From contig JAICLU010000007.1 in NCBI GenBank assembly GCA_025925195.1, positions 1 to 34,824 on the forward strand: DNA of 34,824 nt. The letters are read 5' to 3'. Source of the stretch: Thermoleophilia bacterium. GTDB lineage: Bacteria; Actinomycetota; Thermoleophilia; Gaiellales; Gaiellaceae. How positions within the stretch are numbered: position 1 is the stretch's first letter; each line of letters opens with the position of its first letter. Positions 4,127 to 12,961 of the stretch are shown here, one piece after another. The position numbers were made by a program, and so were the translations under genes. The notes under the pieces were generated by a model. It saw nothing but the letters and a program-made list of their open reading frames with translations. It ran no database searches and was not told the origin of the DNA.

Positions 4127-5314
4127 TCAGAGCGCGGCGTCGACCGCTGCGGCGACGAAGAGCAGCGCGAGATAGAGCAGCGAGTAGTGGAACGCGAACG
4201 CGGCCCGGCGGCGGTCGCCGTCGCGAAGCCGCAGCGCGAGGACGAGAAAGATGCCGCCGAGCCCAAGCGCGAAGACGAGATAGACGAGGCCGAACGCGCC
4301 GGCCGCATACGGCACGACCGTGAAGGCGACGAGCGCGATCGTGTACCAGACGATCCGCCGCACGGTCGCCGGGACGCCGGCGGCAACCGGCAGCATCGGA
4401 ACGTTCGCCTTCGCGTAGTGCTCGCGGAGCAGAAGGGCGAGCGCCCAGAAGTGGGGCGGCGTCCAGAGGAAGACGATCACGAAGAGCCACAGCGCCGGCA
4501 GGCCGAGGTTGCCGGTCGCCGCTGCGTAGCCGACGAGCGGCGGCACCGCGCCTGCGGCGCCTCCGAGCACGATGTTCTGCGGGCCGCGCCGCTTCAGGTA
4601 CCCGGTATAGACGAGCACGTAGAACGCGTTGCCGACGAGTGCGAGCACCGCCGTCAGCACGTTGACGCTCGACGCGAGCAGCGTGAACGAGCAGGCCGAC
4701 AGCGCGAGCCCGAACTCGAGGGCGCGCGACGGCGCGAGCCGTCCGGTCGCGACCGGACGTCCTTCCGTGCGGGATCCCATGAGGCGGTCGATGTCGCGGT
4801 CGAGCAGATGGTTGAGCGCGCTCGCGCCACCGCAGGCAAGTGCGAGGCCGACCATCGCGAGCACGAACTGCGCGCTGCCGGGCCAGCCGCGCGCGCCGAC
4901 GACCATGCCGCACGCGCCCGTGACGAGCAACAGGCTCATGATGCGCGGCTTCGTCAGCGTCAGGTAGTCGCGGGCGCTGCCGCGTTCGAGCGGGGCGCCG
5001 CGCAGGCAGCGCGCCGCAGCCACGCAGGTCGCCGCGAGCGCGAGCGATGCGAGCACGAGGTGCAGTTGCCGCGTCGTGACGGCGGCCGAGGTGCAGAAGA
5101 GCGCAAGCGCCGCACACGCCGGCGGCAGCAGTCTGCGGTGCGACAGGAAGGCGGCGAGCACGAGCGCCAGCAGGGGTGGCAGCGCCGCGGCCGCGACGAC
5201 GTCGTGCGTCGAGCGGCTGCCGGTCGCGCCGCTGACGACCGCGATCAGGCAGCCGGCGGCGGCGGCGAGCGCGGTCAGGCGCAGAGCGAGGCCGCCGCTC
5301 GCACCGGTTCTCAC
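4127..5314 (-). CDS. ctaB: Protoheme IX farnesyltransferase (heme O synthase) with N-terminal TM extension
   Basis: DYLTLTKPRIMSLLLVTG, NHLLDRDIDRLMGSRTEGRPVATG, YTGYLKRRGPQNIVLGGAAGAVPPLVGYAA, WTPPHFWALAL: UbiA/CyoE motifs. Confidence 0.92.
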   Translation of the reverse strand: MRTGASGGLALRLTALAAAAGCLIAVVSGATGSRSTHDVVAAAALPPLLALVLAAFLSHRRLLPPACAALALFCTSAAVTTRQLHLVLASLALAATCVAAARCLRGAPLERGSARDYLTLTKPRIMSLLLVTGACGMVVGARGWPGSAQFVLAMVGLALACGGASALNHLLDRDIDRLMGSRTEGRPVATGRLAPSRALEFGLALSACSFTLLASSVNVLTAVLALVGNAFYVLVYTGYLKRRGPQNIVLGGAAGAVPPLVGYAAATGNLGLPALWLFVIVFLWTPPHFWALALLLREHYAKANVPMLPVAAGVPATVRRIVWYTIALVAFTVVPYAAGAFGLVYLVFALGLGGIFLVLALRLRDGDRRRAAFAFHYSLLYLALLFVAAAVDAAL

Positions 5315-5991
5315 GCGGGGTCCCGCGCGAGCCGCGCCAGGTCAGACTGGACGAACGACTGCAAGAACGGGAACAGGTACGCAGTCCGCTCGGAGCCCCT
5401 CCGGTCGATCAGGTAGAGCGCGAGGCTGTGCACGATGTCGTTCGTCGTCGGCTCGACCTCGACCCCGTAGCGCTTCCACACGGCGGCGAGCTGCGCGCGG
5501 TGCGGCGCGTTCAGCCAGTGCAGCTGCCAGGGGCCCGACAGCTTCCATTTCGCGAGGGCGTGCGAGATCGAGCCCGGAGTGTCGCCGCGCGGGTCGACGC
5601 TGACCACGAGGACGACGGGGCGCCGCGCGGCCGGGAGCCGTCGCATGATCGAGCCGAGCTCACGGCCGACGATCGGGCATGCGGTCGTGCACTGCGAGTC
5701 GAGGAAGACGAGCAGCACCGGCTTTCCGCGCAGCCCTGCCAGCGAGATGGATGCGCCGTGTTGATCGCGGAGCGCGAACGGCGGAGCGGGGCGGGCGCCC
5801 GGCGCCCACGACGCCTGCCCATGGAACTCGGGCAGCGCCGGCTTCACGAGGGTGGTCGCGCCGCGCTCGTGCAGGACGCGGACGAGCGCACCGGCGCCGA
5901 TACCGGCCAGCGCGACCGCTGCGAGCACGAGCCCGACCTGCGCTCCGGCGGGCCGGCCGCGGCCGGGCGCGGCTGCGCCGACCTCGGTCAT
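5311..5991 (-). CDS. SCO1/SenC-family copper chaperone
   Basis: FALRDQHGASISLAGLRGKPVLLVFLDSQCTTACPIVGREL: thioredoxin-like fold with CxxxC metal site; ATGA overlap with ctaB and with the upstream small ORF. Confidence 0.9.
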   Translation of the reverse strand: MTEVGAAAPGRGRPAGAQVGLVLAAVALAGIGAGALVRVLHERGATTLVKPALPEFHGQASWAPGARPAPPFALRDQHGASISLAGLRGKPVLLVFLDSQCTTACPIVGRELGSIMRRLPAARRPVVLVVSVDPRGDTPGSISHALAKWKLSGPWQLHWLNAPHRAQLAAVWKRYGVEVEPTTNDIVHSLALYLIDRRGSERTAYLFPFLQSFVQSDLARLARDPA

Positions 5992-6131
5992 TGCACCTTG
6001 CCGCTGCGCGCGCCGGGCGTGCGCCGTCGTAGCAGGATCCACCAGTAGATGCCGACGGCGATCAGCGCGCCGACGGGGATGACGAGGGACAGGATCGCGC
6101 CGGTGAGGAAGTGCGTTGCGAGCAGGATCAT
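5988..6131 (-). CDS. 47-aa single-TM protein in the cytochrome oxidase operon
   Basis: MILLATHFLTGAILSLVIPVGALIAVGIYWWILLRRRTPGARSGKVQ; stop overlaps the SCO1 ATG (ATGA) and the start lies 2 bp after the ctaG stop. Confidence 0.65.
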   Translation of the reverse strand: MILLATHFLTGAILSLVIPVGALIAVGIYWWILLRRRTPGARSGKVQ

Positions 6132-6133
6132 GG

Positions 6134-6982
6134 TCAGGTTCCTCTCAGGAGACGCCCACGCGCCGGCAGGGGATCGAGCCAGCGGTAGACGAAGACGACG
6201 ATGGCGGCCGTGTACGCGATCGAGCCGGGCACCCACATGACGCCGGCGGCGAGGCGCTGGTCGGTGAGCTCTGACAGGCCGCCCGGGCGGTGCGCGAGGT
6301 CCGCATACCCGGAGTAGAGCGCGTTCGGCTCGAACGCGAGGATCACCGAGAGCAGCCAGCCGACGAGCATCCCCGATCCTGCAAAGGCGACCCGGTGCAG
6401 CCAGTCGAGTCGAGACCGGAACGGCGGCGAATCGACGATCGCCCCCCAGAAGAGCAGCGCCGTCGCGAAGAACAGCGCGTGCTCGAGGTCGTGCACGGCC
6501 TCGTTCCGCAACGTCAGGTCGTACAGCGCGGGCAGGTGCCAGACGAGCAGGGTCGTCGAGGCAACGGTCCACGCGCACACGGGATGGCCGAACGCGTGCG
6601 TGACTGCGCGCAGCCACGCGGCGCGCGGGCTGAGAGCGAGCGTCCGCGCGGTCGCGCGGCGGAAGCTCAGCGGCAGCGGCTGCCACATCCGCATCCAGGG
6701 CGCCGAGACCACGATGAGCGGCGGCGCGACCGCGATCAACAGCACGTGCTGCACCATGTGCGCGAGGAACAGCCGGTCGGCGAGCGCGTCGAGCGGCGAG
6801 TCGAGCGCGACGACGACGGCGAGCAGACCCAGCGAGAAGGCGATCGTCCGGCCGCGCTGCTCGTTGCCATGCGGCCCCGAGACGCGGCGCCTCCCGCCGA
6901 GCCAGTACAGGATCGCTGCGATCGCGACGACCGCGAGCGGCGGCTCGATCGGCCAGGCGGCGGCGCTCGTCAGGCTGGGCAC
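6134..6982 (-). CDS. ctaG: Cytochrome c oxidase assembly factor, CtaG (caa3-type) family
   Basis: Multi-TM; FLAHMVQHVLLIAVAPPLIVVSAPW, HLPALYDLTLRNEAVHDLEHALFFATALLFWGAI, QRLAAGVMWVPGSIAY. Confidence 0.88.
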   Translation of the reverse strand: MPSLTSAAAWPIEPPLAVVAIAAILYWLGGRRRVSGPHGNEQRGRTIAFSLGLLAVVVALDSPLDALADRLFLAHMVQHVLLIAVAPPLIVVSAPWMRMWQPLPLSFRRATARTLALSPRAAWLRAVTHAFGHPVCAWTVASTTLLVWHLPALYDLTLRNEAVHDLEHALFFATALLFWGAIVDSPPFRSRLDWLHRVAFAGSGMLVGWLLSVILAFEPNALYSGYADLAHRPGGLSELTDQRLAAGVMWVPGSIAYTAAIVVFVYRWLDPLPARGRLLRGT

Positions 6983-6992
6983 CGCGCGGGCC

Positions 6993-7673
6993 TCAGATCA
7001 GGTAGAGGACGACCCAGCTGAGGACGCCGAGCCCCGCCACGAAGCCCCAGTAGAAGGACAGGGACTCGAGGCCCGGCCGCACGAGCGACAGCGGATCGCT
7101 GATGTCGTGGCCCGGCCGTCCCGGGTCGCCGGACGCCTCGCCGGGAGCCGGGGAGCCGGTCGCGTGGCTCCGGTAGCGCAGCGAGGTCGCGACGATGTTC
7201 TCCAGCCAGAAGAGCGTGCCGATCGTGAAGAGCACGTTGAACGCCGTCCAGCCGAAGAAGACGCTCGCGTAGCCGCCGTCGGCCGGGCCGAACCCGATCG
7301 CCGTCCATTCGATCACCTGCACCACGACCCCGGCGATTCCGAGCGCGAGCGCGACCACTCCCGTGCGGCGCCACTGCGCGCGGCGCCCCGCACGGTGCTG
7401 CAGCAGTCCGATCCGCACGAGCAATGCGCTCAGGACGATCAGCGCCATGACGATCGTGCCGTAGGCGAGCGACGGGTCGATGTGCTTCGGCCGCCACTTG
7501 TCCGCATTGTTCAACGAGCGGAGGTAGAAGTACGCGAAGACGAACGCGAGGAAGAAGAACGCCGTCGCGCTGGCGAACAGATGCGCTCCGGAGTTCAGGT
7601 TGCGGCCGAGCAGCTCCGGCGGCTCGCCCTCGACGATCTCGTAGTCGGTCGCATGGCTCACCAGTTCGCTCAT
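6993..7673 (-). CDS. ctaE: Cytochrome c oxidase subunit III
   Basis: LFASATAFFFLAFVFAYFYLRS, LLFWLENIVATSLRY, FYWGFVAGLGVLSWVVLYLI; located between ctaD and ctaG. Confidence 0.88.
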   Translation of the reverse strand: MSELVSHATDYEIVEGEPPELLGRNLNSGAHLFASATAFFFLAFVFAYFYLRSLNNADKWRPKHIDPSLAYGTIVMALIVLSALLVRIGLLQHRAGRRAQWRRTGVVALALGIAGVVVQVIEWTAIGFGPADGGYASVFFGWTAFNVLFTIGTLFWLENIVATSLRYRSHATGSPAPGEASGDPGRPGHDISDPLSLVRPGLESLSFYWGFVAGLGVLSWVVLYLI

Positions 7674-9562
7674 GACATGCCTCCTACGCCGGTCGGGGCG
7701 GGTACGGCGACCGGGCCGCGCGCCTCGCCGTAGTCGTACGGATCACTCGTGATGTGTGGAATCCGGTCGAAGTTGTGCACCGGAACGGGCGACGGCAGCT
7801 GCCACTCGAGCGAGCGCGAGCCCCAGGGATTCGCCGGCGCCGGCACCTTCGCGAACACGAGCGACCAGACGAAGTTCACGAGGAACAGCAGCAGCGAGAA
7901 CCCGAGCACGAACGCCGAGATCGACACCCAGTCGTTCAGGAACTGCAGCGTGTGCGCGTACGTCACCGCGCGGCGCGGCTGCCCGAGGAACCCGATCGCG
8001 AACAACGGCCCGAACGTCGAGTTGAACGAGATGAACATCAGCCAGAAGTGCACCTTCCCGAGGCGCTCGTTCAGCATGTAGCCCGTCATCTTCGGCACCC
8101 AGTAGTAGATCGCGGCGAAGAAGGTGAACACGAGCCCGCCCATGATCGTGTAGTGGAAGTGGGCCATCGAGAAGAAGCTGCCGTGCGTCGTCACGTCGCT
8201 CGGAACGTCGGAGAGGAAGACGCCCGACAGCCCGCCGATCAGGAAGTTGAAGAACCAGGCGAGGCAGAACAGCATCGGCACCGGGAAGCGCAGGTTGCCG
8301 CGCCAGAGCGTCATCAGACCGCAGAGGAACGTGAAGCCGGTCGGAATCGAGATCAGCTCGGTCGACAGCATGTAGAACGGCCGCAGGTCGCTGTTGATGC
8401 CGCTGACGAAGATGTGGTGCTGCCAGACGAGCCAGCTCAGCAGCGTGACGCCGAGCAAGCCCGCGACCGAGAGGCGGTAGCCCCAGAGCGGCTTGCGCGC
8501 GAACACCGGCAGGAGCTCGAGCACGATCGCGAATCCGGGCAGCGCGAGGATGTAGACCTCCGGGTGCCCGAAGATCCAGAACAGGTTCTCGTACAGGTAT
8601 GGACTGCCGCCGCCGGTCGGCAGGAAGAAGGTCGTCTGCGCCGTCCGGTCGAGCATCGCCATGCCGAGCACCGCGACGAGCACCGGGGCTGCGAGCACCA
8701 TGAGGATCGCGGTCGACAGCACGCCCCAGCAGAAGATCGGCAGGCGCGACCACGTCAACCCCGGCGCGCGCATGGTCACGATCGTCGCGATCATGTTCAG
8801 GCCGAGCAGGCACATCGAGATCCCGACGAGCGCGAAGAACACGATGTACGCGTCCATGCCGGCGTTCGCCTGATCGTTGAGCGGCTCGTAGCCCGTCCAC
8901 CCCGTGGGGAAGCCGCCGAAGAAGATCGTCGTCGTCAGGATCGCGCCTGCCGACATCAGCAGCCAGAAGGTCAGCGCCTCGATGCGCGGGAAGGCCATCC
9001 GGCGCGCGCCGATCATCAGCGGCACGAGGTAGTTCGCAAACGGCCCGAGGATGCCGCTCGTGAACATCCCCATCATCATCGTGCCGTGCATTCCGACGAG
9101 CGTCAGGTACTGGCCGGGCGGGAAGATATGGCTCGTCGGGCTGAGCAGCTCCATTCGGATGAACATCGCGTTCAGCCCGCCGACGAAGAAGAAGAGACCG
9201 ATCCCCCACAGGTACTGGATGCCGACGACCTTGTGGTCGGTGCAGAGGCCGAAGTAACGGCCCGCGCCCTCCGTCTCCTTCTCGCGGAGCGACGGCGGAT
9301 AGCCGCGCATGCGCGACCACGGGTAGACGCCGAAGCCCAACCCGATCAGGAAGCCGAGCAGGCCGATGATGTAGCCGCAGAAGATCGCGACGTCGTTCTG
9401 GTCGATGTCGCCGAAGTAGTCGATGCTCGCGCCGGCGACCTGGTGGCCGATGAACCAGCCGAGATACCAGCCGCCGACGCCGAGGACGACCGCCGTCAGC
9501 AGGTTGAACCCGATCAGGCGGCGCCAGAGCGGTGGAGTGGTCTCGATCGCGACTGCGCTCAC
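7670..9562 (-). CDS. ctaD: Cytochrome c oxidase subunit I (GTG start)
   Basis: CTDHKVVGIQYL, MHGTMMMGMF, WIFGHPEVYILALPGFAI, WQHHIFVSGI, HFHYTIMGG: canonical heme-copper motifs; GTG at 9562. Confidence 0.96.
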   Translation of the reverse strand: MSAVAIETTPPLWRRLIGFNLLTAVVLGVGGWYLGWFIGHQVAGASIDYFGDIDQNDVAIFCGYIIGLLGFLIGLGFGVYPWSRMRGYPPSLREKETEGAGRYFGLCTDHKVVGIQYLWGIGLFFFVGGLNAMFIRMELLSPTSHIFPPGQYLTLVGMHGTMMMGMFTSGILGPFANYLVPLMIGARRMAFPRIEALTFWLLMSAGAILTTTIFFGGFPTGWTGYEPLNDQANAGMDAYIVFFALVGISMCLLGLNMIATIVTMRAPGLTWSRLPIFCWGVLSTAILMVLAAPVLVAVLGMAMLDRTAQTTFFLPTGGGSPYLYENLFWIFGHPEVYILALPGFAIVLELLPVFARKPLWGYRLSVAGLLGVTLLSWLVWQHHIFVSGINSDLRPFYMLSTELISIPTGFTFLCGLMTLWRGNLRFPVPMLFCLAWFFNFLIGGLSGVFLSDVPSDVTTHGSFFSMAHFHYTIMGGLVFTFFAAIYYWVPKMTGYMLNERLGKVHFWLMFISFNSTFGPLFAIGFLGQPRRAVTYAHTLQFLNDWVSISAFVLGFSLLLFLVNFVWSLVFAKVPAPANPWGSRSLEWQLPSPVPVHNFDRIPHITSDPYDYGEARGPVAVPAPTGVGGMS

Positions 9563-9578
9563 GCAGGGCTCCTCTCGG

Positions 9579-10448
9579 TCAGCCCGCGCGTTGCGACGGG
9601 TCGGGCAGATACGTGGTCGAGTAGGGCGGCAGATACTTCGAGACGGGCGCGAAGTACGACTGCTGCTGCTTGATCCAGCTCGTGAACCGGCCGGACGCCA
9701 CGACGTGGCCGGTGTCGAACATGTAGCCGTGCCACAGGCCGCAGAGTTCTGCACAGCGGATGTCGAACTGCATCGGGTCCTTCGTGTGCACGTAGACGAT
9801 GTTGTCGACGCCCGGGTTCGCGTCGGCCTTGACGCCGAGCCCGTACGCCCAGAACGAATGGATCGCGTCGAGTGACGTCACGTGCAGCCGCACGAGCGTC
9901 CCCGCCGGCAGCACGAGGTGCGGTGTCTCGATGCCGCCGTACGTGGGGTAGCGATACGTGAACTCCCACTGCTGCCCGATCACCTGGACGTCGAGCGCCT
10001 TCTGGTAGCCGGCCGGCTGGAACGCCGCCGTCGGGCCCTGGCCGCCGCCGGCGCCCGACTGCACGAGCTCGTAGCTGCCGAACCCGGCCAGGAAGAGGAC
10101 GATCGCCGACGTGATGACCATCCACAGCGTCTGGATCCGCGCGTTGCCACGGATCGGCGGCCCGTCCTCGAGTGCCCCGACCGTGCCGCGGTTCCGGAAC
10201 GTCCAGAGGGCGTAGCCGAGGAACATCACGACGAACAGGCCGGGCGGCGTCATGATCGCGAGCAGCCACGAGTTGTCGAAGACCTGCTCGTGCGCCTGCG
10301 CAGACCCGTTCCCGGGCGGCAGGTGGTCGCCGAGGAAGATCGCGACGAGCGGCGTCGCGATGACGCTCGCGACGATCCAGGCGACGAGGAAGCGCTTGCC
10401 GTGGTCGGTCGCGGGCGCGGGCGTTGTGGATGCGGCGGCCTCGGTCAT
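9579..10448 (-). CDS. ctaC: Cytochrome c oxidase subunit II (CuA)
   Basis: Two TM segments, VIGQQWEFTYRYP, DAIHSFWAYGLGVKADANPG, CAELCGLWHGYM (CuA ligands). Confidence 0.95.
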   Translation of the reverse strand: MTEAAASTTPAPATDHGKRFLVAWIVASVIATPLVAIFLGDHLPPGNGSAQAHEQVFDNSWLLAIMTPPGLFVVMFLGYALWTFRNRGTVGALEDGPPIRGNARIQTLWMVITSAIVLFLAGFGSYELVQSGAGGGQGPTAAFQPAGYQKALDVQVIGQQWEFTYRYPTYGGIETPHLVLPAGTLVRLHVTSLDAIHSFWAYGLGVKADANPGVDNIVYVHTKDPMQFDIRCAELCGLWHGYMFDTGHVVASGRFTSWIKQQQSYFAPVSKYLPPYSTTYLPDPSQRAG

Positions 10449-11134
10449 CAGACGACGTTCAGGAAGCCGTCCATGTAGCCGACGCTCTGCATCGGCCCGC
10501 CGAAGCCGTACTCGAAGCCGGCGGCGCACGGGACGAAGCACTGCCAGCGGTAGCGACCGGGCTTGCCGGTGCGGAACGTGAAGGTGATCGTGCGGTGCGC
10601 CATCGAGAGCGCGCACGGTGCGTAGCCGCAGGCCTTGGGCGAGTCTTCGCCGGCTTCGCTGACCGGTGCGACCGGGACGAGGATCCCCATTTCAGGGACC
10701 GCGAACGTGTGCGACGGCTGGTCGGGCGGGAACGCGTCGATCGGCTTGCCGTCGACGACCTCCTTGCCGACGAGGCCCTGCGGCTGGCCGAGGAAGGGAT
10801 TGCGAAGCCCGCTCGCGCCGTCGAAGTTGTAGATCGTCACGTGGACGAGCGCGTGGGCGGGCAGCGTGTAGATCGTGCTGCGCTCCCACTGGCCGTTCGG
10901 CCGGCGCACGAGGTACGAGACCCAGTCGGGGTGCGGCGCCTTCGTCGGGCCGACCGCGGCCACCGTCTGCAGGACGAGGTTGACGCTCGTCTTGCCGCTC
11001 GTCGTCTGCGCAGCGGGGCGGAACGGGGTCGTGTTCCCGACGAGGTAGCCCGAGATGTAGAAGCCGATCAGGATGCCCGCGACGGCGACGACCGCCGCCA
11101 CTCCTGCCACCTTCGCCGCCAGGCCTCCCCGCAT
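10448..11134 (-). CDS. Membrane-anchored cupredoxin-like protein, first gene of the oxidase operon
   Basis: N-terminal TM (GVAAVVAVAGILIGFYISGYLVG), then a beta-rich domain ending GRYRWQCFVPCAAGFEYGFGGPMQSVGYMDGFLNVV with a CxxxC; 1-nt TGATG overlap with ctaC. Confidence 0.7.
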   Translation of the reverse strand: MRGGLAAKVAGVAAVVAVAGILIGFYISGYLVGNTTPFRPAAQTTSGKTSVNLVLQTVAAVGPTKAPHPDWVSYLVRRPNGQWERSTIYTLPAHALVHVTIYNFDGASGLRNPFLGQPQGLVGKEVVDGKPIDAFPPDQPSHTFAVPEMGILVPVAPVSEAGEDSPKACGYAPCALSMAHRTITFTFRTGKPGRYRWQCFVPCAAGFEYGFGGPMQSVGYMDGFLNVV

Positions 11135-11187
11135 GGCTGGTGGATATACAGCGGCCCGAAGGCGGGGGTCGCACAAATGACGAAAGT

Positions 11188-11214
11188 GTCATCCGCCCGT
11201 CATTTACATGTCAT
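11188..11214 (+). promoter_or_regulatory. Three GTCAT direct repeats with 11-bp period (PhoB/OmpR-box-like)
   Basis: GTCAT at 11188, 11199 and 11210 in the divergent intergenic region upstream of the OmpR-family regulator. Confidence 0.6.
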
Positions 11215-11244
11215 TCGCAGGGCGATAGGTTGCGTGAGCGGCTG

Positions 11245-11904
11245 ATGAACATCCTGCTGATCGAGGACGAGGCTCGGATCCTGTCGTTCCTCGCGCGCGG
11301 CCTGGAAGCCGAGGGCTACTCGGTCGAGAGCGCCGGCGACGGGCGGCTCGGGCTCGCCCTCGCGGTCGCGCGCACCTGGGACCTCGTCGTGCTCGATCTG
11401 CTGCTGCCGTCCATGAGCGGCCTCGACGTCCTCGCCGAGCTCCACCGCCGGCGTCCCGACCTGCCCGTGCTCATCCTCTCGGCGAGGTCGGACCTGCAGA
11501 CGAAGCTGCGCGGGTTCGAGCTCGGCGCGTCGGACTACGTCCAGAAGCCGGTCGCGCTCGACGAGCTCCTCGCACGGGTGCGCGTCCAGCTGCGCCGCCG
11601 CGAGCCGGTCGACGGCGGACTCATCTGCTGCGGGCGCCTCGAGCTCGACGTCGAGCGCCGGCAGGCCCGCATCGGCGCCGCCGTCTGCGAGCTCTCCGAC
11701 CGCGAGTTCCGACTGCTCCGCCATCTCGTCGATCACGCCGGAAAGGTGATCAGCCGGGAACGGCTGCTCGCCGACGTCTGGGGGTACACGTTCGACCCCG
11801 GCTCGAACGTCGTCGACGTGTGCATCCGGCGGCTCCGGAAGAAGCTCGGGCCCGACGCTCCGATCGAGACCGTCCGCCATGCGGGTTACCGGCTGGCTGC
11901 GTAG
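11245..11904 (+). CDS. OmpR/PhoB-family response regulator
   Basis: MNILLIEDEARILSFLARGLEAEGY receiver domain; VLDLLLPSMSGLDVL; C-terminal winged helix LSDREFRLLRHLVDHAGKVISRERLLADVWGY...VDVCIRRLRKKL. Confidence 0.94.
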   Translation: MNILLIEDEARILSFLARGLEAEGYSVESAGDGRLGLALAVARTWDLVVLDLLLPSMSGLDVLAELHRRRPDLPVLILSARSDLQTKLRGFELGASDYVQKPVALDELLARVRVQLRRREPVDGGLICCGRLELDVERRQARIGAAVCELSDREFRLLRHLVDHAGKVISRERLLADVWGYTFDPGSNVVDVCIRRLRKKLGPDAPIETVRHAGYRLAA

Positions 11905-12961
11905 ATACTCGGTCGAGGTCGGCTGGTCGGTGTTCGCTGCGGCGAACGTCGCCGCGATGATCGCGGACCCGAGCTGGGAGACGATCCCGTTCCACTTCGT
12001 CTGGATCAGCCTGACGCTCGTCTACGGGTTCCGCGTCTGGTCGAACCGGACGACCACGATCGTGCTCGCCGTCGTCGTCGTCTCGACCGGCACGTCGATC
12101 TTCGCCGACGCGTTCGAGGGCATCCAGCTGTGGGGCGAGCTGTTCGAGGTGCCGCTGATGTCGGCGATGTTCCTCGCGATGGTGTGGCACGCGCGACGCC
12201 GGCAGATCGCGGTGCACGAGGCGGAGGCGCTCGTCGAGCAGCAGGAGCGGTTCCTGCACGACGTGTCGCACGAGCTGCGGACGCCGGTCGCGATCGCGCG
12301 TGGCCACCTCGACCTCCTGCGTCCGCGCGGCGGCGAGCTGCCGCCGGAGGTCGCGATCGCGATCGACGAGCTCGGCCGGATGGACAGGATCATCTCGCGC
12401 CTGCTGCTGCTCGCGAAGGCGGAGCAGCCGTCCTTCCTCGCATTCGCGCCGCTCGACGCGGCGGCGTTCCTCGAGGACGTCTTTCTCCGCTGGAGCGAGG
12501 TCGCGCCGCGCGTGTGGCGGCTCGGCCGGCTCGCGCAGGGCTCCGTCCTCGCCGACGAGGAGGCGTTGCGCGACGCGCTCGACGCGCTGCTCGAGAACGC
12601 CGTCAAGTACACCGACCGTGGCGACCGGATCGAGGTGCGCTCGTACGTCCTCGACTTCGGGCTCGTGATCGAGGTGATCGACACCGGCGTCGGCATTCCG
12701 GCCGAAGCCGTCGACCGGATCTTCGAGCGCTTCGCCCGCGGCGACGCCGCACGGACGCGGTCGACCGGCGGCGTCGGGCTCGGGCTCGCGATCGTCGACG
12801 CGGTGGCGCGGGCGCACGGCGGGGCCTGCTCCGTGCAGTCGAAGGGCCGCGGGGCGACGTTCTCGCTGAGGCTGCCGCGCTACACGGCGTCAGGGAACGG
12901 GGCGAGCACCGGGACGAGCGCGGGGGATCCGGCGATGCTGCCGGATCCCGTGCTCGAGTAG
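11879..12961 (+). CDS. Sensor histidine kinase
   Basis: TM segments, H box FLHDVSHELRTPVAIARGHLDLL, N box DALLENAVKYTDRGDRIEV, G boxes DTGVGIPAEAVDRIFERF / GGVGLGLAIVDAVARAHGG. Confidence 0.94.
   Translation: MRVTGWLRRYSVEVGWSVFAAANVAAMIADPSWETIPFHFVWISLTLVYGFRVWSNRTTTIVLAVVVVSTGTSIFADAFEGIQLWGELFEVPLMSAMFLAMVWHARRRQIAVHEAEALVEQQERFLHDVSHELRTPVAIARGHLDLLRPRGGELPPEVAIAIDELGRMDRIISRLLLLAKAEQPSFLAFAPLDAAAFLEDVFLRWSEVAPRVWRLGRLAQGSVLADEEALRDALDALLENAVKYTDRGDRIEVRSYVLDFGLVIEVIDTGVGIPAEAVDRIFERFARGDAARTRSTGGVGLGLAIVDAVARAHGGACSVQSKGRGATFSLRLPRYTASGNGASTGTSAGDPAMLPDPVLE
12903..12956. terminator. Nested inverted repeat at the 3' end of the histidine kinase ORF
   Basis: Inner arms GGGATCCGGC (12924-12933)/GCCGGATCCC (12940-12949); outer arms CGAGCAC (12903-12909)/GTGCTCG (12950-12956). 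Confidence 0.45.

Follow-up and report, generated by a model that had tools for sequence, protein, structure and literature searches.

What does a phased array of short repeats do in the gap between two divergent promoters, one leading to a two-component system and the other to a terminal oxidase? The question is raised by a locus of a Thermoleophilia bacterium, one of the soil actinobacteria (assembly GCA_025925195.1, contig JAICLU010000007.1), of which we analyzed a stretch of 34,824 nucleotides, hereafter the window. Comparison across the class suggests that the array is probably a two-way operator, through which the adjoining two-component system would activate both its own transcription (i.e., positive autoregulation) and that of the oxidase operon. 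In the literature searched, we found no publication on two-component systems that control terminal oxidases in this class.

The array and its genomic setting

The array consists of four half-sites, each 11 bp from the next (ATGACn6GTCATn6GTCATn6GTCAT; Table 1). The sequence carries the three GTCAT copies and the ATGAC exactly where the initial annotation had placed them. That annotation listed the inverted ATGAC apart from the three direct repeats; it is in the same 11-bp phase, is equally conserved and is an integral part of the array. Half-sites 1 and 2 form a 16-bp inverted repeat (ATGACgaaagtGTCAT), and half-site 4 is the most variable of the four, with GTCAC or GTCAG in relatives.

Within the window, the triple pattern with up to three mismatches has three matches, all of them registers of one array, where shuffles predict 0.29. 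In the draft genome (2.6 Mb, 82% complete; searched by pattern), the array is the sole match at up to two mismatches and no second GTCATn6GTCAT was found; nor did these pattern searches find a second array that would point to a wider regulon in this genome. Within genomes of the same genus, the array is likewise present at this locus only.

The regulator gene starts 31 bp past the array and overlaps a histidine kinase gene; its receiver and DNA-binding domains, both above cut-off, confirm its assignment to the OmpR family. From start codon to start codon, 110 bp separate it from the divergent operon. This operon had been annotated as a cytochrome oxidase, which the gene content (COX2, COX1, COX3, CtaG, SCO, and UbiA/CtaB) bears out and narrows to the caa3 type. 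Its first gene is not ctaC, which is the second; the gene for P0003 comes first. Profile searches with P0003 gave no Pfam or NCBIfam match, and its C-x3-C...M end is reminiscent of a degenerate CuA site.

Table 1. Features of the locus, in window coordinates.
Feature	Position	Strand	Remarks
UbiA/CtaB	4127–5314	-	
SCO1/SenC	5311–6042	-	
CtaG	6134–6982	-	
COX3	6993–7673	-	
Cytochrome c oxidase subunit I (ctaD)	7670–9565	-	PF00115, E=4e-128
Cytochrome c oxidase subunit II (ctaC)	9579–10451	-	PF00116; TIGR02866 best but below cut-off
P0003, small membrane-anchored protein, first gene of divergent operon	10448–11134	-	Kept before ctaC-ctaD in relatives
Putative -10 box of oxidase promoter, TATATC	11143–11148	-	28 bp from array; predicted function
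Half-site 1, inverted	11177–11181	-	ATGAC on + strand, GTCAT on oxidase strand
Half-site 2, GTCAT	11188–11192	+	
Half-site 3, GTCAT	11199–11203	+	Direct repeat in 11-bp phase
Half-site 4, GTCAT	11210–11214	+	Direct repeat in 11-bp phase
Putative -10 box of regulator promoter, TAGGTT	11226–11231	+	16 bp past half-site 4 start; predicted function
OmpR/PhoB-type response regulator, 219 aa	11245–11904	+	Response_reg (PF00072) and Trans_reg_C (PF00486), above cut-off
Sensor histidine kinase	11879–12961	+	HisKA and HATPase_c

Conservation upstream of orthologous regulators

Orthologues of the regulator were sought in 61 relatives and 399 genomes of the class Thermoleophilia, which yielded 43 (the window's own included), 42 of them at loci with upstream DNA and hence testable. 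Upstream regions were scored by the number of matching half-site letters out of 20. The array, or a recognizable version of it, lies upstream of the regulator at 42 of the 42 testable loci—a tally of loci from draft MAGs, in which related loci are not independent. Loss of the repeats from orthologous intergenic regions was the outcome that the initial annotation had named as speaking against its reading, and they are kept throughout. At 37 loci (plus L154) the array lies no more than 260 bp from the start codon and scores 15–20; shuffled upstream regions never scored above 14 in 2100 trials. The distance to the regulator start codon is 315–355 bp at L131, L141 and L142, and 254 bp at L159, a 58% orthologue; at L140, L152 and L155 one half-site has decayed. 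Upstream regions of 11 paralogous regulators score 9–12, with no array just upstream.

In the set of 41 anchored arrays, for which the register of L131 was corrected, half-site 1 reads ATGAC or GTGAC in all except L142. Except for T, which is strongly preferred before half-site 2, and for some letters common to close relatives, the spacers are variable, and such variation between kept half-sites argues for binding-site constraint. The array might also be a chance repeat without function. Half-sites are short, and nothing else speaks for such a reading, which is already refuted by conservation of the array at all 42 loci, down to 58–63% protein identity, while spacers vary; we give it next to no credence.

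Three side observations concern related loci. One of the 11 paralogues (L038, in genome G017) carries an array of this kind at a greater distance upstream. In one clade (L131, L141, L142), a small open frame (MTLTTL..., about 55–60 codons) lies between the array and the regulator gene. In the sister group L160–L162 (about 50% identity) all half-sites are direct (GTCATn6GTCAT), and in L162 (G043) the gap between the regulator gene and ccoN holds two separate GTCATn6GTCAT pairs in one orientation, one near each gene, again as direct repeats only.

Two oxidase types beside one two-component system

At all 40 loci with an identifiable divergent neighbor, this neighbor is a haem-copper oxidase operon, of the aa3/caa3 type at 25 and of the cbb3 type at 15. 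In the cbb3-type operons the COX1-family gene ccoN is nearest, followed by that for a FixO/cytochrome c protein. The two labels are intermixed on the tree of regulator plus kinase, with four changes of type, at least two of them forced by well supported branches. Among five aa3/caa3 operons of relatives that lack an adjacent two-component system, four have no array; the fifth (G038) has an ATGACn6GTCAT inverted repeat before the operon, several more sites elsewhere, and a different regulator group. Taken together, oxidase neighbors of two types at 40 of 40 loci and lone operons without the array indicate that the array follows the two-component system, and that the two-component system follows either oxidase type.

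This distribution bears on whether the array serves the regulator gene only (i.e., autoregulation), with the oxidase operon an uncontrolled neighbor. Such a reading would suit an array that follows the regulator, that is mostly lacking from aa3/caa3 operons without a neighboring system, and that same-genus genomes hold at this locus alone. Yet the identifiable partner is always an oxidase operon despite several exchanges of type, the spacing to the oxidase -10 box is fixed, and the array stayed with the oxidase where the regulator gene lies farther off (see below). We regard exclusive service to the regulator as unlikely and favor the two-way operator, against which one locus does count: L159 has kept the array with no recognizable oxidase beside it.

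In one genome (G020), where the two-component system adjoins the cbb3 operon, a receiver-only protein of 129 aa (L166, 3606–3995) comes before the aa3/caa3 operon and shares about 60% identity with the receiver domain of the regulator. This protein is perhaps the remnant of a former copy.

Promoter geometry and the direction of control

For promoter geometry, sequences were anchored on the array, and -10 boxes are consensus matches. On the oxidase side, a TA step lies at -30/-29 from the array start at 29 of 40 loci and at -31 at 7 more, with both oxidase types represented. In the cbb3 group all 15 loci have this step within a TANNNT on the oxidase strand, and the stacking of TANNNT on this side was matched by none of 2000 shuffles; the -10 box of the aa3/caa3 operons departs from canonical TANNNT. 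The conserved TA step probably belongs to the oxidase -10 box. In the window, the candidate box TATATC lies 8 nt upstream of the P0003 start codon at 11134, so that the oxidase transcript would be almost leaderless.

On the regulator side, TANNNT falls 16–17 bp past the start of half-site 4 at 21 of 35 loci and 11–13 bp past it at 8 of 35, i.e., in two spacing classes. In this layout the array would cover the -35 region of the regulator promoter, and that of the oxidase promoter would come directly after it. These two classes, like the non-canonical aa3/caa3 box, count against a two-way operator. We consider that use of the array by the oxidase promoter is best argued from L131, L141, L142 and L157, where the regulator gene lies 126–355 bp from the array and the distance from array to oxidase -10 region is as usual.

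From this geometry we infer the following mechanism. The regulator of the adjoining two-component system would bind the array; on its own side, the direct half-sites over the -35 region would let the system activate its own transcription (class II, as for AgrR). On the oxidase side, the inverted half-site would read as GTCAT immediately before the -35 region, with constant spacing to the -10 box, and one bound array would switch on the divergent oxidase operon too. Both promoters would thus be controlled, and by activation rather than repression. The initial annotation had proposed an autoregulatory site that may also control the oxidase operon. Conservation at 42 of 42 loci, constant oxidase linkage, constant spacing on the oxidase side and preferred spacings on the regulator side support this proposal, and the presence of two oxidase types facing the array, together with the fixed distance to the oxidase -10 region, makes the oxidase link stronger than that annotation could know.

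Alternatively, the bound regulator might shut off one or both promoters. In the regulator promoter, one half-site falls between the -10 and -35 regions, where a half-site at about -27 would suit repression, and some positions allow repression by OmpR-family regulators (PMC7380067). The geometry, however, fits class II activators with weak or missing -35 boxes, such as AgrR (PMC7380067), and the array covers the -35 region. A repressor site is thus quite unlikely, and activation from the array remains the reading that we prefer.

Comparison with known operators

The initial annotation read the array as a Pho-box-type site. Pho boxes sit over the -35 region. Those of E. coli repeat the half-site TGTCAT directly at 11-bp steps (PMC10294691), and both half-site and step recur in the array, as would be expected were it bound by another regulator, e.g., a true PhoB. 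Pho boxes, however, have no inverted half-site, and the one found here is as conserved as the direct ones; the array also occurs at only a single promoter of the genome and accompanies the adjoining regulator. The regulator itself scores 175.2 bits against the PhoB family, below the cut-off of 296.2, and no link to phosphate genes was seen. We set aside a plain Pho box on the inverted half-site and the missed cut-off, and consider binding by PhoB or any other such regulator very improbable. Of the Pho-box-type reading, the 11-bp direct repeats stand; the class is better described as CusR/CopR/AgrR-type, i.e., with inverted plus in-phase direct repeats.

AgrR of Cupriavidus metallidurans, a CopR-like member of the OmpR family, binds the inverted repeat ATKACANNNNTGTMAT and extra in-phase direct half-sites, both of which contribute to binding and activation (PMC7380067). 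It is described as a type II activator with positive autoregulation, and its targets are silver/copper resistance genes (PMC7380067). The window's ATGACgaaagTGTCAT agrees with this inverted repeat at 11 of 12 specified positions, with G instead of A at position 6, where relatives have A, C, G or T. The array shares with the AgrR box the inverted repeat, the in-phase direct half-sites and, as predicted from the geometry, the class II position and positive autoregulation; it differs in being one dedicated site, in a gap between two-component system and oxidase, and in having as a rule two extra direct half-sites. Of the marks of a CusR/CopR/AgrR-type operator, the array has the inverted repeat and the additional in-phase direct half-sites, here two further conserved GTCAT at 11-bp steps; a third, activation by the bound cognate regulator, is predicted.

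The cusR–cusC gap of E. coli K-12 contains AAAATGACAATTTTGTCATTTTTCTGTCACC (ATGACaattttGTCATttttctGTCAC), i.e., three half-sites arranged as ATGACn6GTCATn6GTCAC. CusR reportedly activates the operons on either side of this gap, cusRS and cusCFBA, from a box within it (PMC10920338), and a PhoB ChIP site in the same gap reads TGTCATTTTTCTGTCACC (PMC10294691). Half-site arrangement and divergent regulator/target gap are alike in the two systems, whereas the direct half-sites lie toward the target gene cusC in E. coli and toward the regulator gene here. The regulator is 37% identical to CusR, and its best NCBIfam family is TIGR01387 (cztR_silR_copR) at 188.2 bits, below the curated cut-off of 279.2, so it is not filed as CopR/CusR itself. 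By analogy, the two-component system here may work like the AgrR and CusR systems.

The sensor kinase and a possible respiratory system

In the AlphaFold model, kinase residues 1–159 (mean pLDDT 92.6) form four membrane-length helices, with an extracytoplasmic domain absent. The membrane domain (window 11879–12330, + strand) carries the strongly conserved motifs WETIPFHF(xW) and WGELFEVPLMSAMFLAMVWH / WGELFEVPLM, with W33, E34, T35, P37, F38, H39, W42, E87, E90, P92 and H104 invariant or nearly so. A PDB fold search with this domain gave no significant match, and it matches no known sensor domain family. The CusS sensor of E. coli, by contrast, has a periplasmic metal-binding domain. A copper-sensing role is conceivable by analogy with CusR, though the sensor here has no periplasmic domain and the regulator misses the TIGR01387 cut-off. 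As for the signal, one might reasonably guess at something in the membrane or the respiratory chain, but this would be only a guess.

The redox two-component systems RegB/RegA, RoxS/RoxR and ResD/ResE control terminal oxidases through regulator and sensor families other than those found here, and we know of no system of these types that lies divergent to exchangeable oxidase operons. Tentatively, and with somewhat less than even confidence, we suggest that Thermoleophilia possess a two-component system dedicated to respiration. Its four-helix kinase would sense the condition of the membrane or respiratory chain and, via the two-way operator, drive the adjacent aa3/caa3 or cbb3 oxidase; the oxidase would have been exchanged while sensor, operator and promoter spacing were kept. 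A control module that stays constant while the oxidase type behind it is exchanged would be a clear case, in nature, of a two-component system whose target has been replaced, and a short, conserved, single-copy operator serving two promoters would offer a direct handle on regulon, activation type and signal.

Pattern searches beyond the class

A search of 84,980 genomes (257 billion bases) for the exact four-half-site pattern gave 48 stretches, against about 0.5 expected (our own estimate, assuming even base composition); about 19 are Thermoleophilia orthologues. An OmpR-type regulator or its kinase lies within about 2.5 kb of about 32 of 49 arrays, and these span phyla from Firmicutes to Verrucomicrobia. 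Arrays beside regulators or kinases in so many phyla indicate that the architecture is general for such regulators and not special to the genome studied here. Exact arrays with no regulator gene nearby occur in Janthinobacterium (L053, L087), Pseudomonas alkylphenolica (L059, L062) and Sphingomonas (L056, L078, L086).

In close relatives, extra matches with one or two mismatches proved to be another motif (ATCACnnTGATGTCAT..., in which TGACATCA/TGATGTCA form a palindrome ahead of a conserved open frame) and were rejected as arrays. A motif common to genomes of the same genus, TGACATCAnnnTGATGTCATnnTGnnGTCATGCA (L198 at about 1500–1530, G000:C100:18386; also L196 and L197), sits just before a conserved open frame (MQIDG...ALREDLARIAAVGDESTARAAELL) and looks like a separate palindromic operator.
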